The position numbers and the translations under genes are program-made. Shown here piece by piece: positions 4,700-58,455 of a stretch of DNA of 64,000 nucleotides (the first letter of the stretch is position 1; the number at the start of each line of letters is the position of its first letter). Origin of the DNA: Haliotis asinina (lineage: Eukaryota; Mollusca; Gastropoda; Lepetellida; Haliotidae); contig NC_090290.1 in the NCBI RefSeq assembly GCF_037392515.1, forward strand, positions 58,044,753 to 58,108,752, read 5' to 3'. The notes under the pieces are model-generated. The model worked only from the letters and a program-made list of their open reading frames with translations. It did not search any database and was not told the origin of the DNA.

Positions 4700-5870
4700 T
4701 CTATTCAGTCAGTCAGTGCTGTACCAGCTTTAGTATGGTTGGTAGTGTTGGGAGTCTGCAACCAATCAGTGCTGTGCAAGCTTTAGTGTGATCAGTATTG
4801 TTAGGAGTCTGCCACCAATCAGTGTTGTGCAGGTTTAGTGCGATCAGTATTGTTAGGAGTCTGCCACCAATCAGTGTTGTGCAGGTTTAGTGTGATCAGT
4901 ATTGTTAGGAGTCTGCCGCCAATCAGTGTTGTGCAGGTTTAGTGTGATCAGTATTGTTAGGAGTCTGCCACCAATCAGTGTTGTGCAGGTTTCGTGTGAG
5001 GTTTCTGACTCCCAACAATACTGATCACACTAAACCTGGCACAACACTGATTGGTTTCTGACTCCCAACAATACTGATCACACTAAACCTGGCACAACAC
5101 TGATTGGTTTCTGACTCCCAACAATACTGATCACACTAAACCTGGCATAACACTGATTGGTTCCTGACTCCCAACAATACTGATCACACTAAACCTGGCA
5201 TAACACTGATTGGTTCCTGACTCCCAACAATACTGATCACAGCAAAAATCTGGCACAACATTAATTGGTGGCTGACTCCCAACTATGCTGATCACACTAA
5301 ACCTGGCACAACACTGATTGGTTTCTGACTCCCAACAATACTGATCACAGCAAAAATCTGGCACAACATTAATTGGTGGCTGACTCCCAACAATACTGAT
5401 CACACTAAACCAGATTTTTGCTATGATCACTATTGTTGGGAATCAGAAACCAATCAGTGTTGTGCCAGGTTTACTATGATCAGTATTGTTGGGAGTCAGC
5501 CATCAATCGGTGCTGTCCTATTTTTAATATGATTGGTAGTTTGGGGAATCAGAAACCAATCAGTGTTGCGCCAGGTTTACTATGATCAGTATTGTTAGGA
5601 GTCAGCCATCAATCGGTGCTGTCCTATTTTTAATATGATTGGTAGTTTGGGGAATCAGAAACCAATCAATGGTGTGCCAGGTTAAGTGTAATCAGTATTG
5701 TTGGGAGTCAGTCACCAATCAGTGTTGTGCCAGGTTTACTATGATCAGTATTGTTGGGAGTCGGAAACCAATCAGTGTTGTGGCAGTTTTCCTATGACTG
5801 GTATTATGTGGAGTCGGAAACCATGCAGTGTTGTGCCAGCTTTAGTATGACTGGTATTGTTGGGAGTCAC
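4700..5870. repeat. 52-53-bp minisatellite with orientation reversals
   Basis: About 20 units of roughly 52 bases (core caatcagtgttgtgcaggtt / tagtgtgatcagtattgtt). Units run in one direction to about 4995. They run as the reverse complement (ctgactcccaacaatactga) from about 5000 to 5410, then return to the first orientation to about 5870. Spacing measured at 4868, 4920 and 4972 is 52 bases. The array lies in a calpain intron. The 99-residue ORF through it (- strand) is periodic and not a gene. Confidence 0.88.
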
Positions 5871-13652: not shown

Positions 13653-13889
13653 GAAAACTAAAGATCATTGTTTGATAGAGTGAGACTTGTATTGACTTAC
13701 AATAGTTAGTAGGGCCCCCTGGTCGAAATTGGGCTTGAAGCTGAGGCAGTGAGCAAGTTCACCATCTTGTCCTCTCACCAGTCCACTGCAAAAACCATAG
13801 ACAACAAAGTCAATAGTGATTGTGCCCTTACCGAATGTGAGGGTAGTGTGAAGACAAAGACAGTGTCTTTATGTACCATGGTAGAATCT

Positions 13890-15510
13890 CCAAAACCAGG
13901 TACATGTGTTGTGATACCTGCACTGACAGAATGTGAAAGTAGTGTGTGAGTTGTGATACCTGCACTGACAGAATGTGAAAGTAGTGTGTGATTTCCCTGA
14001 CAGACTTTATGTACCATGGTAGAATCTCCATAACCAGGTACATGTGTTGTGATACCTGCACTGACAGAATGTAAAAGTAGTGTGTGAGTTGTGATACCTG
14101 CACTGACAGAATGTGAAAGTAGTGTGTGATTTCCCTGACAGACTTCATGTACCATGGTAGGATCTCCATAACAGGGTGTGTGAGTTGTGATACCTGCACT
14201 GACAGAATGTGAAAGTAGTGTGTGATTTCCCTGACAGACTTTATGTACCATGGTAGGATCTCCATAACGGGGTGTGTGAGTTGTGATACCTGCACTGACA
14301 GAATGTGAAAGTAGTGTGTGATTTCCCTGACAGACTTTATGTACCATGGTAGAATCTCCATAACCAGGTACATGTGTTGTGATACCTGCACTGACAGAAT
14401 GTGAAAGTAGTGTGTGAGTTGTGATACCTGCACTGACAGAATGTGAAAGTAGTGTGTGATTTCCCTGACAGACTTCATGTACCATGGTAGGATCTCCATA
14501 ACAGGGTGTGTGAGTTGTGATACCTGCACTGACAGAATGTGAAAGTAGTGTGTGATTTCCCTGACAGACTTCATGTACCATGGTAGGATCTCCATAACAG
14601 GGTGTGTGAGTTGTGATACCTGCACTGACAGAATGTGAAAGTAGTGTGTGATTTCCCTGACAGACTTTATGTACCATGGTAGAATCTCCATAACCAGGTA
14701 CATGTGTTGTGATACCTGCACTGACAGAATGTGAAAGTAGTGTGTGAGTTGTGATACCTGCACTGACAGAATGTGAAAGTAGTGTGTGATTTCCCTGACA
14801 GACTTCATGTACCATGGTAGGATCTCCATAACAGGGTGTGTGAGTTGTGATACCTGCACTGACAGAATGTGAAAGTAGTGTGTGATTTCCCTGACAGACT
14901 TCATGTACCATGGTAGGATCTCCATAACAGGGTGTGTGAGTTGTGATACCTGCACTGACAGAATGTGAAAGTAGTGTGTGATTTCCCTGACAGACTTCAT
15001 GTACCATGGTAGGATCTCCATAACAGGGTGTGTGAGTTGTGATACCTGCACTGACAGAATGTGAAAGTAGTGTGTGATTTCCCTGACAGACTTCATGTAC
15101 CATGGTAGGATCTCCATAACAGGGTGTGTGAGTTGTGATACCTGCACTGACAGAATGTGAAAGTAGTGTGTGATTTCCCTGACAGACTTCATGTACCATG
15201 GTAGGATCTCCATAACGGGGTGTGTGAGTTGTGATACCTGCACTGACAGAATGTGAAAGTAGTGTGTGATTTCCCTGACAGACTTTATGTACCATGGTAG
15301 AATCTGCAAAACCGGGTGTGTGAGTTGTGATACCTGCACTGACAGAATGTGAAAGTAGTGTGTGATTTCCCTGACAGACTTTATGTACCATGGTAGGATC
15401 TCCATAACCAGGTGCACGTTTTGTGATACCTGCACTGACAAAATGTGAAAGTAGTGTGTGATTACCCTGACAAAGATATTACGTACCATGGTAGGATCTC
15501 CATAACCGGG
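13890..15510. repeat. 96-bp tandem array with 42-bp insert variant
   Basis: About 16 units contain gacttcatgtaccatggtag, gatctccataacagggtgtg, tgagttgtgatacctgcact and gacagaatgtgaaagtagtg. Start-to-start distances are 96 (14141 to 14237 to 14333) or 138 bases (14333 to 14471), where a 42-base part is doubled. Both lengths are multiples of three, so two - strand frames stay open for 538 and 572 codons. Both give the same peptide period of 32 residues and neither resembles a protein. I read it as non-coding. Confidence 0.9.
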
Positions 15511-15879
15511 TGTGTAATGGTTTTGAATACAGCAACATAAGAACACGCTTTGTTGTCATGCCCTGTTGATAGAAAATATTGAGAACAAAAATGATCCTTC
15601 TGGCAATAAACACGTACAAGACAAAATATCATTCATGTCATCTTCTTGGTATTGCATACAGAACATTACTGGACTGCTTGCCCGGTGTCAGGTGAAGGAG
15701 AACCTCAATATACGTGGTTAAGTTATATTTTTGTTACCACTCACAAAAGACAGCAATTTATTTAATAGATGTTCTTATGATCCAATCATCATGTACAGGG
15801 TAACTTCACTACTAAAATACTAAATTCTGAGATGAACTGAGTGAATGAGTGAGTTTAGTTTATGCCACACTCAGCAATA

Positions 15880-21367: not shown

Positions 21368-21488
21368 CATGATGCCAGTGTCTGTTGGGGCAGCAGACAA
21401 CAGGATGCTGCCATCAGGGTGCCAGGCTAGGCTGGTCACTGGGGTGTGGCCTGAATGCTGTAGCACTTGAACTGAGCTAGCTGATGGT
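21368..21488 (-). CDS. AAAS: AAAS exon: WD blade ([10 protein letters not shown])
   Basis: The acceptor is cctacttgcag and the donor ATG|GTGAGA; the exon is 121 bases. The first base completes the arginine codon split across the 17.6-kb intron. It encodes [20 protein letters not shown], then [20 protein letters not shown]. This is one of the most conserved parts of aladin. It lies at the downstream end of the giant minisatellite intron, about 65 bases from the first recognisable repeat units. Confidence 0.93.
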
Positions 21489-21552
21489 CTGCAAGTAGGA
21501 GCATAAGCAAAGGAATTAGTGTCCAGATTTTACACAGATGTAAGTCAACAAA

Positions 21553-22440
21553 CCTGACAAGGGCTTTAACACACTAACTGACCTACCTGACAACAAAGGC
21601 TTTAACACACTGACTGACCTACCTGACAACAAGGGCTTTAACACACTGACTGACCTACCTGACAACAAGGGCATTAACACACTGACTGACCTACCTGACA
21701 ACAAGGGCTTTTAACACACTGACTGACCTACCTGACAACAAGGGCTTTTAACACACTGACTGACCTACCTGACAACAAGGGCTTTTAACACACTGACTGA
21801 AGTACCTGACAACCAGGGCTTTTAACACACTGACTGACCTACCTGACAACAAGGGCTTTAACACACTGACTGACCTACTTGACAACAAGGGCTTTAACAC
21901 ACTGACTGACCTACCTGACAACAAGGGCTTTTAACACACTGACTGAAGTACCTGACAACCAGGGCTTTTATGACACTTGACTGACGTACCTTCTAAAAAG
22001 GATGTTATCAAGCTGACACACCTGCTAACAAGGATGTTAAGAAGCTGACTAACACACCTGCTAACAAGGATGTTAAGAAGCTGACTGCCATTCCTGCTTA
22101 CAAGGTTGTTCACTTGGTGACACACTTGCTAACAAGGATGTTAAGAAGCTGACTGACACACTTACTAACAAGGATGTTAAGAAGCAGATTGACATACCTG
22201 CTTTGAAGGATGTTAAGAGGCTGACTGACACACTTGCTAACAAGGATGTTAAAAAAACAGAATGACCCAGCTGCTAACAAGGATGTTAAAAAGCAGATTG
22301 ATTAATATTGATTAATGTTAATAAGGATGTTAACACGCAAACTGACTACATGTGAACAAGTTAACTGGAATACATGCTAACATGGACGTTAACCTGCACA
22401 CTGGCGTACAAGCTAATATGGATGTTAACCAGCTGACTGA
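21553..22440. repeat. Diverged 36-bp minisatellite at the acceptor side of the intron
   Basis: The units (cctgacaacaagggctttaa then cacactgactgacctac) are about 36-37 bases. They align with the main array unit: ctgactgac-TACCTG-aca/gta-ac-aagg-gctttaa. From about 22000 the units grade into aacaaggatgttaagaagct forms and then the regular array. This is the oldest-looking or most divergent flank. Confidence 0.8.
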
Positions 22441-25400
22441 CGTACATGGTAATAAGGATGTTAACTAGCTGACTGACATACCTGATATCGAAGGATGTTA
22501 ACCAGCTGACTGACGTACATGCTAATAAGGATGTTAACTAGCTGACTGACATACCTGATATCTAAGGATGTTAACCAGCTGACTGACGTACATGCTAATA
22601 AGGATGTTAACTAGCTGACTGACATACCTGATATCTAAGGATGTTAACCAGCTGACTGACGTACATGCTAATAAGGATGTTGACTAGCTGACTGACGTAC
22701 ATGCTAATAAGGATGTTAACCAGCTGACTGACGTACATGCTAATAAGGATGTTAACCAGCTGACTGACGTACATGCTAATAAGGATGTTAACTAGCTGAC
22801 TGACATACCTGATATCTAAGGATGTTAACCAGCTGACTGACGTACATGCTAATAAGGATGTTAACTAGCTGACTGACATACCTGATATCTAAGGATGTTA
22901 ACTAGCTGACTGACGTACCTGCTAATAAGGACGTTAACCAGCTGACTGACATACCTGATATCTAAGGATGTTAACCAGCTGACTGACGTACATGCTAATA
23001 AGGATGTTAACTAGCTGACTGACGTACATGCTAATAAGGACGTTAACTAGCTGACTGACATACCTGATATCAAAGGATGTTAACTAGCTGACTGACGTAC
23101 CTGCTAATAAGGACGTCAACCAGCTGACTGACATACCTGATATCTAAGGCTGTTAACCAGCTGACTGACGTACATGCTAATAAGGATGTTAACTAGCTGA
23201 CTGACATACCTGATATCTAAGGATGTTAACCAGCTGACTGACGTACATGCTAATAAGGATGTTGACTAGCTGACTGACGTACATGCTAATAAGGATGTTA
23301 ACTAGCTGACTGACATACCTGATATCTAAGGACGTTAACCAGCTGACTGACATACCTGATATCTAAGGATGTTAACTAGCTGACTGACGTACATGCTAAT
23401 AAGGATGTTAACTAGCTGACTGACATAGCTGATATCTAAGGATGTTAACCAGCTGACTGACGTACATGCTAATAAGGATGTTGACTAGCTGACTGACGTA
23501 CATGCTAATAAGGATGTTAACTAGCTGACTGACATACCTGATATCTAAGGCTGTTAACCAGCTGACTGACGTACATGCTAATAAGGATGTTGACTAGCTG
23601 ACTGACATACCTGATATCTAAGGATGTTAACTAGCTGACTGACGTACCTGCTAATAAGGACGTTAACCAGCTGACTGACATACCTGATATCTAAGGCTGT
23701 TAACCAGCTGACTGACGTACATGCTAATAAGGATGTTAACTAGCTGACTGACATACCTGATATCTAAGGATGTTAACTAGCTGACTGACGTACCTGCTAA
23801 TAAGGACGTTAACCAGCTGACTGACATACCTGATATCTAAGGACGTTAACCAGCTGACTGACGTACATGAAACTAGGGCGTTAACCGGCTGACTGACATA
23901 CCTGGTAGCTAAGCATGTTAACCAGCTGACTGACATACCTGGTAGCTAAGCATGTTAACCAGCTGACTGACGTACATGCTAATAAGGACGTTAACCAGCT
24001 CACTGACGTACATGCTAATAAAGATGTTAACCAGCTGACTGACGTACATGCTAATAAGGACGTTAACCAGCTGACTGACATACCTGGTAGCTAAGCATGT
24101 TAACCAGCTGACTGACGTACATGCTAACAAGGACGTTAACCAGCTGACTGACGTACATGCTAATAAGGACGTTAACCAGCTGACTGACATACCTGATATC
24201 TAAGGACGTTAACCAGCTGACTGACATACCTGATATCTAAGGACGTTAACCAGCTGACTGACGTACCTGATATCTAAGGATGTTAACCAGCTGACTGACG
24301 TACATGCTAATAAGGATGTTAACTAGCTGACTGACGTACATGCTAATAAGGACGTTAACCAGCTGACTGACATACCTGGTATCTAAGGACGTTAACCAGC
24401 TGACTGATGTACATGCTAATAAGGATGTTAACCAGCTGACTGACATACATGCTAATAAGGACGTTAACCAGCTGAGTGACATACCTGGTAGCTAAGCATG
24501 TTAACCAGCTGACTGACATACATGCTAATAAGGACGTTAACCAGCTGACTGACGTACATGCTAATAAGGATGTTAACCAGCTGACTGACATACATGCTAA
24601 TAAGGACGTTAACCAGCTGACTGACGTACATGCTAATAAGGACGTTAACCAGCTGACTGACGTACATGCTAATAAGGACGTTAACCAGCTGACTGACGTA
24701 CATGCTAATAAGGATGTTAACTAGCTGACTGACGTACATGCTAATAAGGACGTTAACCAGCTGACTGACATACCTGGTATCAAAGGACGTTAACCAGCTG
24801 ACTGACATACCTGGTAGCTAAGCATGTTAACCAGCTGACTGACGTACATGCTAATAAGGACGTTAACCAGCTGACTGACATACCTGGTAGCTAAGCATGT
24901 TAACCAGCTGACTGACGTACATGCTAATAAGGATGTTAACTAGCTGACTGATGTACATGCTAATAAGAACGTTAACCAGCTGACTGACATACCTGGTAGC
25001 TAAGCATGTTAACCAGCTGACTGATGTACATGCTAATAAGGATGTTAACCAGCTGACTGACGTACATGCTAATAAGGACGTTAACCAGCTGACTGACATA
25101 CCTGGTAGCTAAGGATGTTAACCAGCTGACTGACATACATGCTAATAAGGACGTTAACCAGCTGACTGACGTACATGCTAATAAGCATGTTAACCAGCTG
25201 ACTGATGTACATGCTAATAAGGACGTTAACCAGCTGACTGACGTACATGCTAATAAGGATGTTAACTAGCTAACTGATGTACATGCTAATAAGGACGTTA
25301 ACCAGCTGACTGACATACATGCTAATAAGGATGTTAACCAGCTGACTGACGTACCTGGTAGCTAAGCATGTTAACCAGCTGACTGACGTACATGCTAATA

Positions 25401-27036
25401 AGGACGTTAACCAGCTGACTGACGTACATGCTAATAAGGACGTTAACCAGCTGACTGACATACCTGGTAGCTAAGCATGTTAACCAGCTGACTGACGTAC
25501 ATGCTAATAAGGATGTTAACCAGCTGACTGACGTACATGCTAATAAGGATGTTAACTAGCTGACTGACGTACATGCTAATAAGGACATTAACCAGCTGAC
25601 TGACGTACATGCTAATAAGGATGTTAACTAGCTGACTGACGTACATACTAATAAGGACGTTAACCAGCTGACTGACATACCTGGTAGCTAAGCATGTTAA
25701 CCAGCTGACTGACGTACATGCTAATAAGGACGTTAACCAGCTGACTGACGTACATGCTAATAAGGACGTTAACCAGCTGACTGACATACCTGGTATCTAA
25801 GGACGTTAACCAGCTGACTGACGTACCTGGTAGCTAAGCATGTTAACCAGCTGACTGACGTACATGCTAATAAGGACGTTAACCAGCTGACTGACGTACA
25901 TGCTAATAAGGATGTTAACCAGCTGACTGACGTACATGCTAATAAGGACGTTAACCAGCTGACTGACATACATGCTAATAAGGATGTTAACCAGCTGACT
26001 GACGTACCTGGTAGCTAAGCATGTTAACCAGCTGACTGACGTACATGCTAATAAGGACGTTAACCAGCTGACTGACGTACATGCTAATAAGGACGTTAAC
26101 CAGCTGACTGACATACCTGGTAGCTAAGCATGTTAACCAGCTGACTGACGTACATGCTAATAAGGATGTTAACCAGCTGACTGACGTACATGCTAATAGG
26201 ACGTTAACCAGCTGACTGACGTACATGCTAATAAGGATGTTAACTAGCTGACTGACGTACATGCTAATAAGGACGTTAACCAGCTGACTGACGTACATGC
26301 TAATAAGGATGTTAACTAGCTGACTGACGTACATGCTAATAAGGACGTTAACTAGCTGACTGACATACCTGGTAGCTAAGCATGTTAACCAGCTGACTGA
26401 CATACCTGGTAGCTAAGCATGTTAACCAGCTGACTGACGTACATGCTAATAAGGATGTTAACTAGCTGACTGACGTACATGCTAATAAGGACATTAACCA
26501 GCTGACTGACGTACATGCTAATAAGGATGTTAACTAGCTGACTGACGTACATGCTAATAAGGACGTTAACCAGCTGACTGACATACCTGGTAGCTAAGCA
26601 TGTTAACCAGCTGACTGACGTACATGCTAATAAGGATGTTAACCAGCTGACTGACGTACATGCTAATAAGGACGTTAACCAGCTGACTGACATACCTGGT
26701 ATCTAAGGACGTTAACCAGCTGACTGACGTACCTGGTAGCTAAGCATGTTAACCAGCTGACTGACGTACATGCTAATAAGGACGTTAACCAGCTGACAGA
26801 CGTACATGCTAATAAGGATGTTAACCAGCTGATTGACGTACATGCTAATAGGACGTTAACCAGCTGACTGACGTACATGCTAATAAGGATGTTAACTAGC
26901 TGACTGACGTACATGCTAATAAGGACGTTAACCAGCTGACTGACATACCCGGTAGCTAAGCATGTTAACCAGCTGACTGACGTACATGCTAATAAGGACG
27001 TTAACCAGCTGACTGACGTACATGCTAATAAGGACG

Positions 27037-30000
27037 TTAACCAGCTGACTGACATACCTGGTATCTAAGGACGTTAACCAGCTGACTGACGTACCTGGTA
27101 GCTAAGCATGTTAACCAGCTGACTGACGTACATGCTAATAAGGACGTTAACCAGCAGACTGACGTACATGCTAATAAGGATGTTAACCAGCTGACTGACG
27201 TACATGCTAATAAGGACGTTAACCAGCTGACTGACATACATGCTAATAAGGATGTTAACCAGCTGACTGACATACATGCTAATAAGGATGTTAACCAGCT
27301 GATTGACGTACATGCTAATAGGACGTTAACCAGCTGACTGACGTACATGCTAATAAGGATGTTAACTAGCTGACTGACGTACATGCTAATAAGGACGTTA
27401 ACCAGCTGACTGACATACCTGGTATCTAAGGACGTTAACCAGCTGACTGATGTACATGCTAATAAGGATGTTAACCAGCTGACTGACATACATGCTAATA
27501 AGGACGTTAACCAGCTGACTGACATACCTGGTAGCTAAGCATGTTAACCAGCTGACTGACGTACATGCTAATAAGGACGTTAACCAGCTGACTGACGTAC
27601 ATGCTAATAAGGATGTTAACCAGCTGACTGACGTACATGCTAATAAGGACGTTAACCAGCTGACTGACGTACATGCTAATAAGGATGTTAACTAGCTGAC
27701 TGACGTACATGCTAATAAGGATGTTAACCAGCTGACTGACATACCTGGTATCTAAGGACGTTAACCAGCTGACTGACATACCTGGTAGCTAAGCATGTTA
27801 ACCAGCTGACTGACGTACATGCTAATAAGGACGTTAAACAGCTGACTGACGTACATGCTAATAAGGATGTTAACCAGCTGACTGACATACATGTTAATAA
27901 GGACGTTAACCAGCTGACTGACATACCTGGTAGCTAAGCATGTTAAGCAGCTGACTGACATACCTGGTAGCTAAGCATGTTAACCAGCTGACTGACGTAC
28001 ATGCTAATAAGGATGTTAACTAGCTGACTGACGTACCTGCTAATAAGGATGTTAACCAGCTGACTGACGTACATCCTAATAAGGACGTTAACCAGCTGAC
28101 TGACATACCTGATATCTAAGGACGTTAACCAGCTGACTGACATACCTGATATCTAAGGACGTTAACCAGCTGACTGACGTACATGCTAATAAGGATGTTA
28201 ACTAGCTGACTGACGTACCTGCTAATAAGGATGTTAACCAGCTGACTGACGTACATGCTAATAAGGACGTTAACCAGCTGACTGACATACCTGATATCTA
28301 AGGACGTTAACCAGCTGACTGACATACCTGATATCTAAGGACGTTAACCAGCTGACTGACGTACCTGATATCTAAGGATGTTAACCAGCTGACTGACGTA
28401 CATGATATCTAAGGATGTTAACCAGCTGACTCACGTACATGCTAATAAGGACGTTAACCAGCTGACTGACATACCTGATGTCTAAGGACGTTAACAGGCT
28501 GACTGACATACCTGATATCTAAGGATGTTAACCAGCTGACTGACGTACATGGTAGCTAAGCATGTTAACCAGCTGACTGACATACCTGATATCAAAGGAT
28601 GTTAACCAGCTGACTGATGTACATGCTAATAAGGACGTTAACCAGCTGACTGACGTACATGCTAATAAGGATGTTAACTAGCTGACTGACGTACATGCTA
28701 ATAAGGATGTTAACTAGCTGACTGACATACCTGGTAGCTAAGCATGTTAACCAGCTGACTGACATACCTGGTAGCTAAGCATGTTAACCAGCTGACTGAC
28801 GTACATGCTAATAAGGACGTTAACCAGCTGACTGACGTACATGCTAATAAGGATGTTAACCAGCTGACTGACATACATGCTAATAAGGACGTTAACCAGC
28901 TGACTGACATACCTGGTAGCTAAGCATGTTAACCAGCTGACTGACATACCTGGTAGCTAAGCATGTTAACCAGCTGACTGACGTACATGCTAATAAGGAT
29001 GTTAACCAGCTGACTGACGTACATGCTAATAAGGATGTTAACCAGCTGACTGACATACCTGGTTGCTAAGGATGTTAACCAGCTGACTGACATACCTGGT
29101 AGCTAAGCATGTTAACCAGCTGACTGACGTACATGCTAATAAGGATGTTAACCAGCTGACTGACGTACATGCTAATAAGGATGTTAACCAGCTGACTGAT
29201 GTACATGCTAATAAGGATGTTAACCAGCTGACTGACATACATGTTAATAAGGACGTTAACCAGCTGACTGACGTACATGCTAATAAGGATGTTAACCAGC
29301 TGACTGACGTACATGCTAATAAGGACGTTAACCAGCTGACTGACGTACATGCTAATAAGGATGTTAACTAGCTGACTGACGTACATGCTAATAAGGATGT
29401 TAACCAGCTGACTGACATACCTGGTTGCTAAGGATGTTAACCAGCTGACTGACGTACATGCTAATAAGGACGTTAACCAGCTGACTGACGTACATGCTAA
29501 TAAGGATGTTAACCAGCTGACTGACATACCTGATATCTAAGCATGTTAACCAGCTGACTGACATACCTGGTAGCTAAGCATGTTAACCAGCTGACTGACA
29601 TACATGCTAATAAGGATGTTAACCAGCTGACTGACGTACATGCTAATAAGGACGTTAACCAGCTGACTGACGTACATGCTAATAAGGACGTTAACCAGCT
29701 GACTGACATACCTGGTATCTAAGGACGTTAACCAGCTGACTGACGTACCTGGTAGCTAAGCATGTTAACCAGCTGACTGACGTACATGCTAATAAGGACG
29801 TTAACCAGCAGACTGACGTACATGCTAATAAGGATGTTAACCAGCTGACTGACGTACATGCTAATAAGGACGTTAACCAGCTGACTGACATACATGCTAA
29901 TAAGGATGTTAACCAGCTGACTGACATACATGCTAATAAGGATGTTAACCAGCTGATTGACGTACATGCTAATAGGACGTTAACCAGCTGACTGACGTAC

Positions 30001-32344
30001 ATGCTAATAAGCATGTTAACTAGCTGACTGACGTACATGCTAATAAGGACGTTAACCAGCTGACTGACATACCTGGTATCTAAGGACGTTAACCAGCTGA
30101 CTGATGTACATGCTAATAAGGATGTTAACCAGCTGACTGACATACATGCTAATAAGGACGTTAACCAGCTGACTGACATACCTGGTAGCTAAGCATGTTA
30201 ACCAGCTGACTGACGTACATGCTAATAAGGACGTTAACCAGCTGACTGATGTACATGCTAATAAGGATGTTAACCAGCTGACTGACGTACATGCTAATAA
30301 GGACGTTAACCAGCTGACTGACGTACATGCTAATAAGGATGTTAACTAGCTGACTGACGTACATGCTAATAAGGATGTTAACCAGCTGACTGACATACCT
30401 GGTATCTAAGGACGTTAACCAGCTGACTGACATACCTGGTAGCTAAGCATGTTAACCAGCTGACTGACGTACATGCTAATAAGGACGTTAAACAGCTGAC
30501 TGACGTACATGCTAATAAGGATGTTAACCAGCTGACTGACATACATGTTAATAAGGACGTTAACCAGCTGACTGACATACCTGGTAGCTAAGCATGTTAA
30601 GCAGCTGACTGACATACCTGGTAGCTAAGCATGTTAACCAGCTGACTGACGTACATGCTAATAAGGATGTTAACTAGCTGACTGACGTACCTGCTAATAA
30701 GGATGTTAACCAGCTGACTGACGTACATCCTAATAAGGACGTTAACCAGCTGACTGACATACCTGATATCTAAGGACGTTAACCAGCTGACTGACATACC
30801 TGATATCTAAGGACGTTAACCAGCTGACTGACGTACATGCTAATAAGGATGTTAACTAGCTGACTGACGTACCTGCTAATAAGGATGTTAACCAGCTGAC
30901 TGACGTACATGCTAATAAGGACGTTAACCAGCTGACTGACATACCTGATATCTAAGGACGTTAACCAGCTGACTGACATACCTGATATCTAAGGACGTTA
31001 ACCAGCTGACTGACGTACCTGATATCTAAGGATGTTAACCAGCTGACTGACGTACATGATATCTAAGGATGTTAACCAGCTGACTCACGTACATGCTAAT
31101 AAGGACGTTAACCAGCTGACTGACATACCTGATGTCTAAGGACGTTAACAGGCTGACTGACATACCTGATATCTAAGGATGTTAACCAGCTGACTGACGT
31201 ACATGGTAGCTAAGCATGTTAACCAGCTGACTGACATACCTGATATCAAAGGATGTTAACCAGCTGACTGATGTACATGCTAATAAGGACGTTAACCAGC
31301 TGACTGACGTACATGCTAATAAGGATGTTAACTAGCTGACTGACGTACATGCTAATAAGGATGTTAACTAGCTGACTGACATACCTGGTAGCTAAGCATG
31401 TTAACCAGCTGACTGACATACCTGGTAGCTAAGCATGTTAACCAGCTGACTGACGTACATGCTAATAAGGACGTTAACCAGCTGACTGACGTACATGCTA
31501 ATAAGGATGTTAACCAGCTGACTGACATACATGCTAATAAGGACGTTAACCAGCTGACTGACATACCTGGTAGCTAAGCATGTTAACCAGCTGACTGACA
31601 TACCTGGTAGCTAAGCATGTTAACCAGCTGACTGACGTACATGCTAATAAGGATGTTAACCAGCTGACTGACGTACATGCTAATAAGGATGTTAACCAGC
31701 TGACTGACATACCTGGTTGCTAAGGATGTTAACCAGCTGACTGACATACCTGGTAGCTAAGCATGTTAACCAGCTGACTGACGTACATGCTAATAAGGAT
31801 GTTAACCAGCTGACTGACGTACATGCTAATAAGGATGTTAACCAGCTGACTGATGTACATGCTAATAAGGATGTTAACCAGCTGACTGACATACATGTTA
31901 ATAAGGACGTTAACCAGCTGACTGACGTACATGCTAATAAGGATGTTAACCAGCTGACTGACGTACATGCTAATAAGGACGTTAACCAGCTGACTGACGT
32001 ACATGCTAATAAGGATGTTAACTAGCTGACTGACGTACATGCTAATAAGGATGTTAACCAGCTGACTGACATACCTGGTTGCTAAGGATGTTAACCAGCT
32101 GACTGACGTACATGCTAATAAGGACGTTAACCAGCTGACTGACGTACATGCTAATAAGGATGTTAACCAGCTGACTGACATACCTGATATCTAAGCATGT
32201 TAACCAGCTGACTGACATACCTGGTAGCTAAGCATGTTAACCAGCTGACTGACATACATGCTAATAAGGATGTTAACCAGCTGACTGACGTACATGCTAA
32301 TAAGGACGTTAACCAGCTGACTGACGTACCTGATATCTAAGGAC
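27037..32344. repeat. Higher-order tandem duplication, 2654-bp period
   Basis: The pattern of unit variants from about 27037 to 29690 recurs from 29691 to about 32344 with an exact offset of 2654 bases. Marker pairs are 27074/29728, 27507/30161, 28710/31364 and 29038/31692. The copies share rare marks such as the units ending cagcagactgacg, gctaatagg (one base short) and acatcctaataagg. They differ by a few substitutions. Confidence 0.85.
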
Positions 32345-35300
32345 GTTAACAGGCTGACATATATCTGATATCTAAGGATGTTAACTAGCTGACTGACGTA
32401 CCTGCTAATAAGGACGTTAACCAGCTGACTGAAATATCTGATGTCTAAGGACGTTAACAGGCTGACTGACATACCTGATATCTAAGGATGTTAACTAGCT
32501 GACTGACGTACATGCTAATAAGGATGTTAACCAGCTGACTGACGTACATGCTAATAAGGATGTTAACCAGCTGATTGACGTACATGCTAATAGGACGTTA
32601 ACCAGCTGACTGACGTACATGCTAATAAGGATGTTAACTAGCTGACTGACGTACATGCTAATAAGGACGTTAACCAGCTGACTGACATACCTGGTATCTA
32701 AGGACGTTAACCAGCTGACTGATGTACATGCTAATAAGGATGTTAACCAGCTGACTGACATACATGCTAATAAGGACGTTAACCAGCTGACTGACATACC
32801 TGGTAGCTAAGCATGTTAACCAGCTGACTGACGTACATGCTAATAAGGACGTTAACCAGCTGACTGACGTACATGCTAATAAGGATGTTAACCAGCTGAC
32901 TGACGTACATGCTAATAAGGACGTTAACCAGCTGACTGACGTACATGCTAATAAGGATGTTAACTAGCTGACTGACGTACATGCTAATAAGGACGTTAAC
33001 CAGCTGACTGACATACCTGGTATCTAAGGACGTTAACCAGCTGACTGACATACCTGGTAGCTAAGCATGTTAACCAGCTGACTGACGTACATGCTAATAA
33101 GGACGTTAAACAGCTGACTGACGTACATGCTAATAAGGATGTTAACCAGCTGACTGACATACATGTTAATAAGGACGTTAACCAGCTGACTGACATACCT
33201 GGTAGCTAAGCATGTTAAGCAGCTGACTGACATACCTGGTAGCTAAGCATGTTAACCAGCTGACTGACGTACATGCTAATAAGGATGTTAACTAGCTGAC
33301 TGACGTACCTGCTAATAAGGATGTTAACCAGCTGACTGACGTACATGCTAATAAGGACGTTAACCAGCTGACTGACATACCTGATATCTAAGGACGTTAA
33401 CCAGCTGACTGACATACCTGATATCTAAGGACGTGAACCAGCTGACTGACGTACATGCTAATAAGGATGTTAACTAGCTGACTGACGTACCTGCTAATAA
33501 GGATGTTAACCAGCTGACTGACGTACATGCTAATAAGGACGTTAACCAGCTGACTGACATACCTGATATCTAAGGACGTTAACCAGCTGACTGACATACC
33601 TGATATCTAAGGACGTTAACCAGCTGACTGACGTACCTGATATCTAAGGATGTTAACCAGCTGACTGACGTACATGATATCTAAGGATGTTAACCAGCTG
33701 ACTGACGTACATGCTAATAAGGACGTTAACCAGCTGACTGACATACCTGATGTCTAAGGACGTTAACAGGCTGACTGACATACCTGATATCTAAGGATGT
33801 TAACCAGCTGACTGACGTACATGGTAGCTAAGCATGTTAACCAGCTGACTGACATACCTGATATCAAAGGATGTTAACCAGCTGACTGACGTACATGCTA
33901 ATAAGGACGTTAACCAGCTGACTGACGTACATGCTAATAAGGATGTTAACTAGCTGACTGACGTACATGCTAATAAGGATGTTAACTAGCTGACTGACAT
34001 ACCTGGTAGCTAAGCATGTTAACCAGCTGACTGACATACCTGGTAGCTAAGCATGTTAACCAGCTGACTGACGTACATGCTAATAAGGATGTTAACCAGC
34101 TGACTGACGTACATGCTAATAAGGATGTTAACCAGCTGACTGACATACCTGGTTGCTAAGGATGTTAACCAGCTGACTGACATACCTGGTAGCTAAGCAT
34201 GTTAACCAGCTGACTGACGTACATGCTAATAAGGATGTTAACCAGCTGACTGACGTACATGCTAATAAGGATGTTAACCAGCTGACTGATCTACATGCTA
34301 ATAAGGATGTTAACCAGCTGACTGACATACATGTTAATAAGGACGTTAACCAGCTGACTGACGTACATGCTAATAAGGATGTTAACCAGCTGACTGACGT
34401 ACATGCTAATAAGGACGTTAACCAGCTGACTGACGTACATGCTAATAAGGATGTTAACTAGCTGACTGACGTACATGCTAATAAGGATGTTAACCAGCTG
34501 ACTGACATACCTGGTTGCTAAGGATGTTAACCAGCTGACTGACGTACATGCTAATAAGGACGTTAACCAGCTGACTGACGTACATGCTAATAAGGATGTT
34601 AACCAGCTGACTGACATACCTGATATCTAAGCATGTTAACCAGCTGACTGACATACCTGGTAGCAAAGCATGTTAACCAGCTGACTGACATACATGCTAA
34701 TAAGAATGTTAACCAGCTGACTGACGTACATGCTAATAAGGACGTTAACCAGCTGACTGACGTACCTGATATCTAAGGACGTTAACAGGCTGACATATAT
34801 CTGATATCTAAGGATGTTAACTAGCTGACTGACGTACCTGCTAATAAGGACGTTAACCAGCTGACTGAAATATCTGATGTCTAAGGACGTTAACAGGCTG
34901 ACTGACATACCTGATATCTAAGGATGTTAACTAGCTGACTGACGTACATGCTAATAAGGATGTTAACCAGCTGACTGACGTACATGCTAATAAGGATGTT
35001 AACCAGCTGATTGACGTACATGCTAATAGGACGTTAACCAGCTGACTGACGTACATGCTAATAAGGATGTTAACTAGCTGACTGACGTACATGCTAATAA
35101 GGACGTTAACCAGCTGACTGACATACCTGGTATCTAAGGACGTTAACCAGCTGACTGATGTACATGCTAATAAGGATGTTAACCAGCTGACTGACATACA
35201 TGCTAATAAGGACGTTAACCAGCTGACTGACATACCTGGTAGCTAAGCATGTTAACCAGCTGACTGACGTACATGCTAATAAGGACGTTAACCAGCTGAC

Positions 35301-37000
35301 TGACGTACATGCTAATAAGGATGTTAACCAGCTGACTGATGTACATGCTAATAAGGATGTTAACCAGCTGACTGACATACATGTTAATAAGGACGTTAAC
35401 CAGCTGACTGACGTACATGCTAATAAGGATGTTAACCAGCTGACTGACGTACATGCTAATAAGGATGTTAACCAGCTGATTGACGTACATGCTAATAGGA
35501 CGTTAACCAGCTGACTGACGTACATGCTAATAAGGATGTTAACTAGCTGACTGACGTACATGCTAATAAGGACGTTAACCAGCTGACTGACATACCTGGT
35601 ATCTAAGGATGTTAACCAGCTGACTGATGTACATGCTAATAAGGATGTTAACCAGCTGACTGACATACATGCTAATAAGGACGTTAACCAGCTGACTGAC
35701 ATACCTGGTAGCTAAGCATGTTAACCAGCTGACTGACGTACATGCTAATAAGGACGTTAACCAGCTGACTGACGTACATGCTAATAAGGATGTTAACCAG
35801 CTGACTGATGTACATGCTAATAAGGATGTTAACCAGCTGACTGACATACATGTTAATAAGGACGTTAACCAGCTGACTGACGTACATGCTAATAAGGATG
35901 TTAACCAGCTGACTGACGTACATGCTAATAAGGACGTTAACCAGCTGACTGACGTACATGCTAATAAGGATGTTAACTAGCTGACTGACGTACATGCTAA
36001 TAAGGATGTTAACCAGCTGACTGACATACCTGGTTGCTAAGGATGTTAACCAGCTGACTGACGTACATGCTAATAAGGACGTTAACCAGCTGACTGACGT
36101 ACATGCTAATAAGGATGTTAACCAGCTGACTGACATACCTGATATCTAAGCATGTTAACCAGCTGACTGACATACCTGGTAGCTAAGCATGTTAACCAGC
36201 TGACTGACATACATGCTAATAAGGATGTTAACCAGCTGACTGACGTACATGCTAATAAGGACGTTAACCAGCTGACTGACGTACCTGATATCTAAGGACG
36301 TTAACAGGCTGACATATATCTGATATCTAAGGATGTTAACTAGCTGACTGACGTACCTGCTAATAAGGACGTTAACCAGCTGACTGAAATATCTGATGTC
36401 TAAGGACGTTAACAGGCTGACTGACATACCTGATATCTAAGGATGTTAACTAGCTGACTGACGTACATGCTAATAAGGATGTTAACCAGCTGACTGACGT
36501 ACATGCTAATAAGGATGTTAACCAGCTGATTGACGTACATGCTAATAGGACGTTAACCAGCTGACTGACGTACATGCTAATAAGGATGTTAACTAGCTGA
36601 CTGACGTACATGCTAATAAGGACGTTAACCAGCTGACTGACATACCTGGTATCTAAGGACGTTAACCAGCTGACTGATGTACATGCTAATAAGGATGTTA
36701 ACCAGCTGACTGACATACATGCTAATAAGGACGTTAACCAGCTGACTGACATACCTGGTAGCTAAGCATGTTAACCAGCTGACTGACGTACATGCTAATA
36801 AGGACGTTAACCAGCTGACTGACGTACATGCTAATAAGGATGTTAACCAGCTGACTGACGTACATGCTAATAAGGACGTTAACCAGCTGACTGACGTACA
36901 TGCTAATAAGGATGTTAACTAGCTGACTGACGTACATGCTAATAAGGACGTTAACCAGCTGACTGACATACATGCTAATAAGGACGTTAACCAGCTGACT
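32200..37000. repeat. Further higher-order blocks (2436- and 1519-bp offsets)
   Basis: A marker block with the irregular segment caggctgacatatatctgat recurs near 32350, 34790, 36305 and 38855. Offsets between matching blocks are 2436 (32495 to 34931) and 1519 (34931 to 36450), and 33215 to 37169 is 3954. These offsets show repeated unequal exchange of multi-kilobase segments rather than only unit-by-unit slippage. Confidence 0.8.
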
Positions 37001-39121
37001 GACATACCTGGTAGCTAAGCATGTTAACCAGCTGACTGACGTACATGCTAATAAGGACGTTAAACAGCTGACTGACGTACATGCTAATAAGGATGTTAAC
37101 CAGCTGACTGACATACATGTTAATAAGGACGTTAACCAGCTGACTGACATACCTGGTAGCTAAGCATGTTAAGCAGCTGACTGACATACCTGGTAGCTAA
37201 GCATGTTAACCAGCTGACTGACGTACATGCTAATAAGGATGTTAACTAGCTGACTGACGTACCTGCTAATAAGGATGTTAACCAGCTGACTGACGTACAT
37301 GCTAATAAGGACGTTAACCAGCTGACTGACATACCTGATATCTAAGGACGTTAACCAGCTGACTGACATACCTGATATCTAAGGACGTGAACCAGCTGAC
37401 TGACGTACATGCTAATAAGGATGTTAACTAGCTGACTGACGTACCTGCTAATAAGGATGTTAACCAGCTGACTGACGTACATGCTAATAAGGACGTTAAC
37501 CAGCTGACTGATATACCTGACATCTAAGGACGTTAACCAGCTGACTGACATACCTGATATCTAAGGACGTTAACCAGCTGACTGACGTACCTGATATCTA
37601 AGGATGTTAACCAGCTGACTGACGTACATGATATCTAAGGATGTTAACCAGCTGACTCACGTACATGCTAATAAGGACGTTAACCAGCTGACTGACATAC
37701 CTGATGTCTAAGGACGTTAACAGGCTGACTGACATACCTGATATCTAAGGATGTTAACCAGCTGACTGACGTACATGGTAGCTAAGCATGTTAACCAGCT
37801 GACTGACATACCTGATATCAAAGGATGTTAACCAGCTGACTGACGTACATGCTAATAAGGACGTTAACCAGCTGACTGACGTACATGCTAATAAGGATGT
37901 TAACTAGCTGACTGACGTACATGCTAATAAGGATGTTAACTAGCTGACTGACATACCTGGTAGCTAAGCATGTTAACCAGCTGACTGACATACCTGGTAG
38001 CTAAGCATGTTAACCAGCTGACTGACGTACATGCTAATAAGGACGTTAACCAGCTGACTGACGTACATGCTAATAAGGATGTTAACCAGCTGACTGACAT
38101 ACATGCTAATAAGGACGTTAACCAGCTGACTGACATACCTGGTAGCTAAGCATGTTAACCAGCTGACTGACATACCTGGTAGCTAAGCATGTTAACCAGC
38201 TGACTGACGTACATGCTAATAAGGATGTTAACCAGCTGACTGACGTACATGCTAATAAGCATGTTAACCAGCTGACTGACATACCTGGTTGCTAAGGATG
38301 TTAACCAGCTGACTGACATACCTGGTAGCTAAGCATGTTAACCAGCTGACTGACGTACATGCTAATAAGGATGTTAACCAGCTGACTGACGTACATGCTA
38401 ATAAGGATGTTAACCAGCTGACTGACATACCTGGTTGCTAAGGATGTTAACCAGCTGACTGACGTACATGCTAATAAGGACGTTAACCAGCTGACTGACG
38501 TACATGCTAATAAGGATGTTAACCAGCTGACTGACGTACATGCTAATAAGGATGTTAACCAGCTGACTGACATACCTGGTTGCTAAGGATGTTAACCAGC
38601 TGACTGACGTACATGCTAATAAGGACGTTAACCAGCTGACTGACGTACATGCTAATAAGGATGTTAACCAGCTGACTGACATACCTGATATCTAAGCATG
38701 TTAACCAGCTGACTGACATACCTGGTAGCTAAGCATGTTAACCAGCTGACTGACATACATGCTAATAAGGATGTTAACCAGCTGACTGACGTACATGCTA
38801 ATAAGGACGTTAACCAGCTGACTGACGTACCTGATATCTAAGGACGTTAACAGGCTGACATATATCTGATATCTAAGGATGTTAACTAGCTGACTGACGT
38901 ACATGCTAATAAGGACGTTAACCAGCTGACTGACATATCTGATGTCTAAGGACGTTAACAGGCTGACTGACATACCTGATATCTAAGGATGTTAACTAGC
39001 TGACTGACGTACATGCTAATAAGGATGTTGACTAGCTGACTGACATACATGCTAATAAGGACGTTAACCAGCTGACTGACATACCTGGTTGCTAAGGATG
39101 TTAACCAGCTGACTTACATAC

Positions 39122-39205
39122 CTGGTTGCTAAGGATGTTGGCTCCACATGCCAGATGAGGATACAAGACTGACAGGCCACGGCCAATACCGACGCTGAAT
39201 TAGGC
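39122..39205 (-). CDS. AAAS: AAAS exon: WD blade ([16 protein letters not shown])
   Basis: The acceptor is tgtctactctag and the donor ACCAG|GTATGTAAGT; the exon is 84 bases. It encodes [18 protein letters not shown] followed by [10 protein letters not shown]. Together with the preceding exon it gives [17 protein letters not shown], a hallmark of aladin. The last codons (ACA TCC TTA GCA ACC AG) and the first intron bases are the template-like first unit of the giant array, which begins with no gap at the splice site. Confidence 0.93.
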
Positions 39206-43739: not shown

Positions 43740-44380
43740 AGAAATTGACCCAAATGGAACAAGGACATGGACACAACAGAACAAGGAGATGGACACAATG
43801 GAACACTAAACAAGGAGATGGACACAATGGAAAAAGGAGAAGGACACAATGGAACACTAAACAAGGAGATGGACACAATGGAACAAGGAGAAGGACACAA
43901 TGGGACAAGAAACATGGAGATGGACATGACAGAACAAGCAACAAGGAGATGGGCACAATGGAACAATAGAGACAAGGACACAATGGAACAAGAAAGATGG
44001 AGACTGACACCACAGAACAAGCAACAAGGAGATGGACACAATGGAAATCTAAACAAGGAGATGGACACAATGGAACAAGGAGAAGGACAAAATGGAACAA
44101 GAAACAAAGAGATGAACACAATTAAACAAGACACAAGGAGATGGACACAATGGACCAAGGAGGACATAATGAAACAAGAAACATGGAGATGGACACGACA
44201 AAACAAGCGACAAGGAGATGGACACGACAAAACAAGCGACAAGGAGATGGACACAAAGGAACAAAAGAGACAAGGACACAATGGAACAAGAAAGATGGAG
44301 ATTGACACCACAGAACAAGCAACAAGGAGATGGACACAATGGAAAACTAAACATGGAGATGGACAAAACAGAACATGATA
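43740..44380. repeat. GA-rich minisatellite beside the AAAS exon 6 donor
   Basis: Imperfect 20-33-base units (acaaggagatggacacaatg, gaacaaggagaaggacacaa, gaaacatggagatggacatg) run to within about 10 bases of the donor at 44387. Strand composition is strongly skewed (purine-rich + strand). Open frames on both strands (for example 203 codons +, 219 codons -) are products of the repeat and are not genes. A higher-order doubling is visible: gacaaaacaagcgacaagga occurs twice near 44197 and 44225. Confidence 0.85.
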
Positions 44381-44387
44381 CACTCAC

Positions 44388-56944: not shown

Positions 56945-58455
56945 TGAAGCACATGAAATAGTTGGTAGGGGGGACTATTGAGGTTTGACACTGAAACACA
57001 TGTAGTAGTTGGTAGGGGGGACTATTGAGGTTTGATCTAGCCTGACACTGAAACACATGTAGTAGTTGGTAGGGGGGACTATTGAGGTTTGATCCAGCCT
57101 GACACTGAAGCACATGAAGTAGTTGGTAGGGGGGGACTATTGAGGTTTGATCTAGCCTGACACTGAAACACATGGAGTAGCTGGTAGGGGGGACTAGTGA
57201 GGTTTGATCCAGCCTGACACTGAAACACATGTAGTAGTTGGTAGGGGGGACTATTGAGGTTTGATCCAGCCTGACACTGAAGCACATGAAGTAGTTGGTA
57301 GGGGGGGACTATTGAGGTTTGATCTAGCCTGACACTGAAACACATGGAGTAGCTGGTAGGGGGGACTATTGAGGTTTGATCCAGCCTGACACTGAAACAC
57401 ATGTAGTAGTTGGTAGGGGGGACTATTGAGGTTTGATCCAGCCTGACACTGAAGCACATGAAGTAGTTGGTAGGGGGGGACTATTGAGGTTTGATCTAGC
57501 CTGACACTGAAACACATGAAGTAGTTGGTAGGGGGGACTATTGAGGTTTGATCCAGCCTGACACTGAAACACATGGAGTAGCTGGTAGGGGGGGACTATT
57601 GAGGTTTGATCCAGCCTGACACTGAAACACATGTAGTAGTTGGTAGGGGGGACTATTGAGGTTTGATCCAGCCTGACACTGAAACACATGAAGTAGTTGG
57701 TAGGGGGACTATTGAGGTTTGATCCAGCCTGATACTGAAACACATGAAGTAGCTGGTAGGGGGGGACTATTGAGGTTTGATCCAGCCTGACACTCAAACA
57801 CATGTAGTAGTTGGTAGGGGGACTATTGAGGTTTGATCTAGCCTGACACTGAAACACATGAAGTAGTTGGTAGGGGGGCTATTGAGGTTTGATCCAGCCT
57901 GACACTGAAACACATGGAGTAGTTGGTAGGGGGGACTATTGAGGTTTGATCCAGCCTGATACTGAAACACATGGAGTAGTTGGTAGGGGGGACTATTGAG
58001 GTTTGATCTAGCCTGACACTGAAACACATGAAGTAGTTGGTAGGGGGGACTATTGAGGTTTGATCCAGCCTGACACTGAAACACATGAAGTAGTTGGTAG
58101 GGGGACTATTGAGGTTTGATCCAGCCTGATACTGAAACACATGGAGTAGCTGGTAGGGGGGACTATTGAGGTTTGATCCAGCCTGACACTGAAACACATG
58201 TAGTAGTTGGTAGGGGGACTATTGAGGTTTGATCTAGCCTGACACTGAAACACATGAAGTAGTTGGTAGGGGGACTATTGAGGTTTGATCCAGCCTGACA
58301 CTGAAACACATGGAGTAGCTGGTAGGGGGGGACTATTGAGGTTTGATCTAGCCTGACACTGAAACACATGAAGTAGTTGGTAGGGGGACTATTGAGGTTT
58401 GATCCAGCCTGATACTGAAACACATGAAGTAGCTGGTAGGGGGGACTATTGAGGG
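56945..58455. repeat. 57-bp minisatellite upstream of an AAAS acceptor
   Basis: About 26 units of 56-58 bases (ttgatccagcctgacactga, aacacatgaagtagttggta, ggggggactattgagg), varying in the length of the G-run (4-7) and in tctagcc/tccagcc. Higher-order doubling is visible: the 57075-57250 block recurs from 57255 with an offset of 172. ORFs on the - strand with QCQAGSNLNSPPYQLLHVF periods are artefacts of the repeat. Confidence 0.9.

Follow-up and report, generated by a model that had tools for sequence, protein, structure and literature searches.

An intronic minisatellite in the AAAS gene of Haliotis asinina with a repeat unit containing an exon end and its 5' splice site

The window analysed here is a 64,000-nucleotide (nt) stretch of the genome of the gastropod Haliotis asinina (contig C11, NC_090290.1, positions 58,044,753-58,108,752 of 58,626,679, in a 1.14-Gb genome). 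It carries AAAS, the gene of the nuclear-pore protein aladin, on its minus strand, and the AAAS exons, splice sites and junction-derived arrays described below all lie on this strand and are given in window coordinates. AAAS occupies a single locus, as the two exon matches found in the genome are both within the present gene. One of its introns is built almost entirely of a minisatellite, the unit of which contains the end of the preceding exon together with its 5' splice site. The AAAS exons were placed using a human aladin query sequence, and the key junction 39122/21488 was checked independently against solved aladin chains of frog and human. An 84-nt exon (39122-39205) ends at the true 5' splice site CAG|GTATGTAA (39114-39124; the bar marks the exon-intron boundary), which opens a phase 2 intron of 17,633 nt (39121 to 21489) leading to the following exon (21368-21488). 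The intron upstream of the 84-nt exon is about 5.2 kb long (44386-39206). The protein spliced from 39122 to 21488 aligns without gaps to Xenopus aladin (7wkk_O, E 3e-31) and human aladin (7r5j, E 9.9e-25), and the alignment crosses the junction at T-S-L-[A/S]-T-R|P-S. The exon end at 39122 is therefore fixed independently of the array.

The array starts at the donor and forms the whole intron except its final 65 nt (21489-21553), which are not repeated and end in the acceptor TTGCAG. Segmentation against six class consensus sequences yielded 488 segments (36 nt in 293, 37 nt in 171). Exclusion of the leading exon piece and of the last three segments, which belong to the intron end, leaves 484 units spanning 39121 to 21554. 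The main minisatellite (22446-39121) accounts for 459 of them, most being 36 or 37 nt long, and the other 25 make up a diverged 3' end (21554-22445). Tandem Repeats Finder (TRF) reports a 36-bp unit in 461.1 copies.

The last 18 exon bases, AACATCCTTAGCAACCAG (39139-39122), constitute the exonic half of the repeat unit. They recur exactly within the tested array stretch 39000-38000, with a local score of 18 compared to a maximum of 11 over 300 shuffles. The first unit is 37 nt long and consists of GTATGTAAGTCAGCTGGTT and then the same 18 bases as the exon end. The 18 exon bases and the first 19 intron bases appear to be the founding unit of the minisatellite. The exon end and donor read as the earlier note described them, and its proposal that the unit combines an exon end with the adjoining 5' splice site is borne out by a match beyond that of shuffled sequence at a junction fixed by the aladin alignment. 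Units of class A retain the exonic bases intact or nearly so, class D units read CTTAGATATCAG, and class M units read CTTATTAGCAT. The donor of classes A and D is CAG|GTATGT, and that of class M is CAT|GTACGT. Units of classes G and W, located at the 3' end of the intron, are more diverged than the other classes, and the diverged end holds eight CAG|GTAGGT units. Judged from the class A 24-mer AACATCCTTAGCAACCAGGTATGT alone, which joins exon-end bases to GTATGT, the unit appears confined to this locus: the 24-mer has 12 exact copies in the 1.14-Gb genome, all inside the window, one of which is the exon junction itself.

Among the 484 donor positions, counting the true one, 470 have GT and 179 have CAG|GT. 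As a correction to the earlier note, the commonest donor class is CAT|GTACGT (226 positions), followed by CAG|GTATGT (137), CAT|GTATGT (35) and CAG|GTACGT (30). At position +7, counted from unit starts, A is present in the true donor alone, and the remaining units have C (473), G (7) or T (3). A MAFFT alignment places A in this column in four further units, each of which has a deletion and is without GT.

We ranked the donors by their pairing with U1 small nuclear RNA (snRNA), expressed as duplex energies and not as a trained splice-site score. The genome contains 42 matches to U1 snRNA genes, and the three that were read have the standard 5' end ATACTTACCTG. The genes form a tandem array on contig C13 (43,860,295-43,885,421), with a spacing of mostly 635 bp. 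The computed energy of the true donor is -9.9 kcal/mol. Among the common classes of the main array, CAG|GTATGTCA is best at -8.3, followed by CAG|GTACGTCA with -7.9, while CAT|GTACGTCA has -1.3. Within the first 17 kb of the intron no decoy pairs as well as the true donor, and only eight CAG|GTAGGTCA units at 21914-21586 are stronger (-11.8 each). Of the donor-like sites noted earlier, 136 decoys carry the same nine bases as the true donor from -3 to +6, but the set of good sites is smaller than the note implied, because the 226 CAT|GTACGT sites of the 484 are nearly all at -1.3.

The 484 units represent 96 distinct sequences. Identity between units is highest at spacings of 73, 109, and 181 units (21%, 21%, and 18% identical, respectively), as would be expected if blocks of about 2.7, 4, and 6.6 kb had been copied. 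Units of the main array are homogeneous, in contrast to the diverged 3' end. The mean entropy of donor columns +1 to +6 is 0.54 compared to 0.64 for the other columns, and 15 of 31 six-column runs, counting +1 to +6 itself, are conserved to the same or a higher degree. Seven of 35 private single-step changes fall within +1 to +6. Selection for donor motifs is unsupported, as the donor columns are not distinct among the 96 unit rows, and the lack of special conservation fits neutral growth.

We infer that the intron expanded neutrally out of its donor junction and that position keeps its splicing correct, and assign this reading a probability of about 0.78. The 18 exon and 19 intron bases across the junction would have been tandemly duplicated within a formerly short AAAS intron. 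The upstream duplicate would have been kept as the exon end, and the additional copies turned into intron. Since the upstream copy was left in place, the protein would be unaltered. The array may then have expanded to 484 units by unequal exchange or slippage, later in large blocks, and its units probably diverged neutrally into classes. The order of these duplications, like their neutrality, is reconstructed from the present-day units.

We extended the exon to the 469 GT decoys in turn and met a stop codon in 468 cases; the one extension that stays open, to 39084, introduces a 37-nt frameshift. The first decoy shifts the frame because the first unit is 37 bases long. These outcomes contradict the idea, raised in the earlier note, that successive donors could add codons in frame in 12-codon steps. 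As decoy use gives a frameshift or a stop, erroneous transcripts are expected to be degraded. By analogy with the variable number tandem repeat (VNTR) of human CBS, decoys might be used often enough to regulate AAAS, with stops and degradation allowing the array length to tune the output. A higher CBS repeat number is reported with lower CBS activity (PMC5188458). The stops in nearly all extensions would suit such regulation, as would the 136 nine-base decoys, and the CAG|GTATGT decoys at -8.3 outpair seven of the nine AAAS donors scored, which range from -5.1 to -11.8. Nevertheless, we consider regulation by decoys unlikely, since the commonest donor class is weak, and the true donor is both closest to the acceptor and computed to be stronger than all main-array decoys.

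How the true donor is selected is not explained by its computed pairing strength alone. An equilibrium model that includes local accessibility assigns about 0.6% of U1 to the true donor and 94-96% to the sites below 21950; restricted to the main array, the model assigns 9-15% to the true donor. Masking of the decoys by RNA structure was rejected, as the true donor is unremarkable in its accessibility, with 178 or 211 of the 484 sites more open, depending on window size. Because computed affinity alone does not pick the true donor, its position probably does. The exon-proximal donor is the nearest one to the upstream acceptor (84 nt) and is located between two long introns, and most likely it stays in use through exon definition. 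In human data, the upstream 5' splice site is favored when the flanking introns are long and the sites are of similar strength (PMC9225289). The locus amounts to a natural experiment on donor choice, in which an exon with one upstream acceptor is followed by 136 nine-base copies of its true donor.

Several points weigh against neutral growth with splicing kept by position. The non-A classes are not close to the exon, and their link to class A consists of the phase, period, and partial identity that it shares with M, G, and W units. The decoy donor nearest to the exon, 37 nt away, is also good. The eight strongest computed U1 sites are decoys close to the 3' end of the intron, just upstream of the acceptor. 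In the human data, the downstream site was preferred in about 60% of events before strength was equalised, and the stronger site was dominant in 86% of events (PMC9225289), though these events concern single site pairs and not sites 17 kb apart.

The CAG|GT decoys nearest to the exon are 37, 146, and 291 nt downstream of the true donor, where U1 binding from 37 nt onward might assist by strengthening recognition of the true exon end. Precedents include U1 binding downstream of PAH exon 11, exon-specific U1 RNAs, and SMN2 (PMC5933811, PMC4289686). Such assistance is improbable in AAAS, given that the donor columns have no special conservation and the next donor past the first decoy is a weaker CAT|GTATGT. 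Stepwise intron removal would use CAG|GT units, chiefly those of class W (CCCTTGTTGTCAG|GTAGGT) near the 3' end, as ratchet points at which an acceptor meets a donor. In the W units, CAG does occur together with a pyrimidine-rich stretch and with the donors that have the best computed energies in the intron. However, a clear pyrimidine tract is not evident by eye in main-array units, and the W units are at most about 500 nt from the true acceptor, so that a ratchet there would save little; we regard this as very improbable. The reverse order, in which the exon end took its sequence from an older array, is hardly credible: the 18 common bases do not by themselves give a direction, but the exon encodes T-S-L-A-T-R, a stretch that aladin of frog and human conserves as T-S-L-S-T-R. 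Protection from premature polyadenylation was also considered as a role of the array. The RNA strand of the array (17,565 nt) has no AATAAA or ATTAAA compared to 44 in 46,282 nt elsewhere on the same strand; low complexity can explain this, and the array has no such site to protect, so the idea was dropped.

A second intron of AAAS (15486-13786, 1,701 nt) holds another junction-derived array (13867-15486), which has a 96-bp unit and other spacings and fills all but about 81 nt of the intron (TRF span 13867-15515). The preceding exon (15487-15562) ends ...PVMEILPC in frame ...HDNKACSYVAVFKTITHPVMEILPC and runs on as GLVRG... in the exon GLVRGQDGELAHCLSFKPNFDQGALLTI beyond the array (13701-13785). 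The joined protein aligns without gaps to frog and human aladin (E 1.1e-8 and 3.5e-8, respectively). The last 29 bases of the preceding exon fall in the 96-bp unit and match the array (15350-13900) at 28 positions, with a score of 26.5 compared to a maximum of 12 over 300 shuffles. The true donor ATG|GTACGTAA (ATG|GTACGT) has a computed U1 energy of -6.5. A recount gave 15 decoy junctions, all ATG|GTACAT, in which the G at +5 is lost; the 14 that were scored have -4.1 each. The 96-bp unit contains a further donor-like motif, CAG|GTATCA, present in 19 copies of -7.2. Since this motif outpairs the true donor, weaker decoys are not the whole story in the second intron. When four unit-sized seeds were placed at random in AAAS, at least two crossed a junction in 0.085% of trials, in a post hoc simulation that used approximate edges of nine exons from an incomplete exon list and omitted the smaller AAAS arrays.

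A scan of 53 loci (L017-L048 and L079-L099, of which L017 and L018 are AAAS itself) revealed a probable mirror case at an acceptor. Upstream of an exon of a kinase gene (L046, contig C4; 1034-1404) is a 65-bp array, the unit of which combines an acceptor-like stretch with the first 32 bases of the putative exon. Exon and array match at 28 of 32 bases, with a score of 22 compared to a maximum of 13 over 500 shuffles. The case is probable only, because the exon start was deduced from an open frame and the acceptor, and the first 55 residues have no kinase match among solved chains, the best being ankyrin with E 0.06. One case in 51 provides no frequency estimate, since long open frames or tandem paralogy are found at many of the kinase loci. 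Small arrays beside kinase exons in L081, L082, and L083 contain no exon sequence by eye.

A duplication across a splice junction stays invisible in the protein once the RNA is spliced, and introns could therefore grow from their own edges. We tentatively raise the possibility that splice junctions are favored birthplaces of minisatellites in the H. asinina genome and that introns grow by repeating their own edges until they consist nearly entirely of copies. Growth from the edges would cover the donor side in the two AAAS introns and probably the acceptor side in the kinase gene. The recurrence within AAAS, and probably at the kinase acceptor, points to a simple way of lengthening an intron without changing the protein, and makes a general rule of birth at junctions worth testing.

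The AAAS array is genuine and represents an extreme case of a known type of repeat. The 31-bp VNTR of human CBS, c.1444_1467+7(16_21), joins 24 bases of the exon to 7 of the intron (PMC2630376), and its units repeat the junction as those of AAAS do, each AAAS unit containing an exon end and a donor. With the CBS repeat known, the kind is not new, but the scale and recurrence of the AAAS case are unusual. The CBS VNTR has 16 to 21 units compared to 484, and its unit is invariably 31 bp with single-base substitutions, whereas the AAAS array comprises diverged 36- and 37-nt classes. The CBS repeat is backed by population and activity data, whereas the AAAS array is known here from the sequence of one genome. 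Internal tandem repeats of human segmental duplications are likewise minisatellites, with units of about 30 bp, at exon-intron boundaries (PMC2812944). They average about four units and 160 bp and changed the gene structure, whereas in AAAS the protein is apparently unchanged and the intron is nearly all array. The AGGT model of intron gain also invokes tandem duplication over a splice signal, with the extra copy left as intron, and the same paper cites multi-copy 24-bp cases in fission yeasts (PMC4974935). In that model a new intron arises, whereas the AAAS intron appears to have been enlarged. A literature search of partial coverage, and hence weak evidence of absence, found no array of exon end plus donor as large as this one.

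The remaining two large AAAS arrays gave no convincing exon match in shuffle tests. A 57-bp array (56986-58454), which stops about 100 nt short of an AAAS exon, was not accepted as derived from an acceptor junction: the score of the exon start on its own is attained by 295 of 300 shuffles, and that of acceptor plus exon start by 11 of 300, a weak acceptor likeness. A 29-bp array (43757-44365) was rejected, with 297 of 300 shuffles reaching the exon-end score. It has short units (TRF periods 22 to 112) and begins 21 nt past the AAAS donor at 44386, but contains no exon sequence. Tandem CAGGTAAGT patterns number 290 genome-wide compared to 56 for the reversed control; they were not used as evidence, as the matches listed are mostly overlapping hits of a few large arrays, and exons were neither shown nor excluded at the six loci of five arrays inspected. 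At 4713-5869, the window contains adjoining arrays with consensus units that resemble, by eye, reverse complements of each other.

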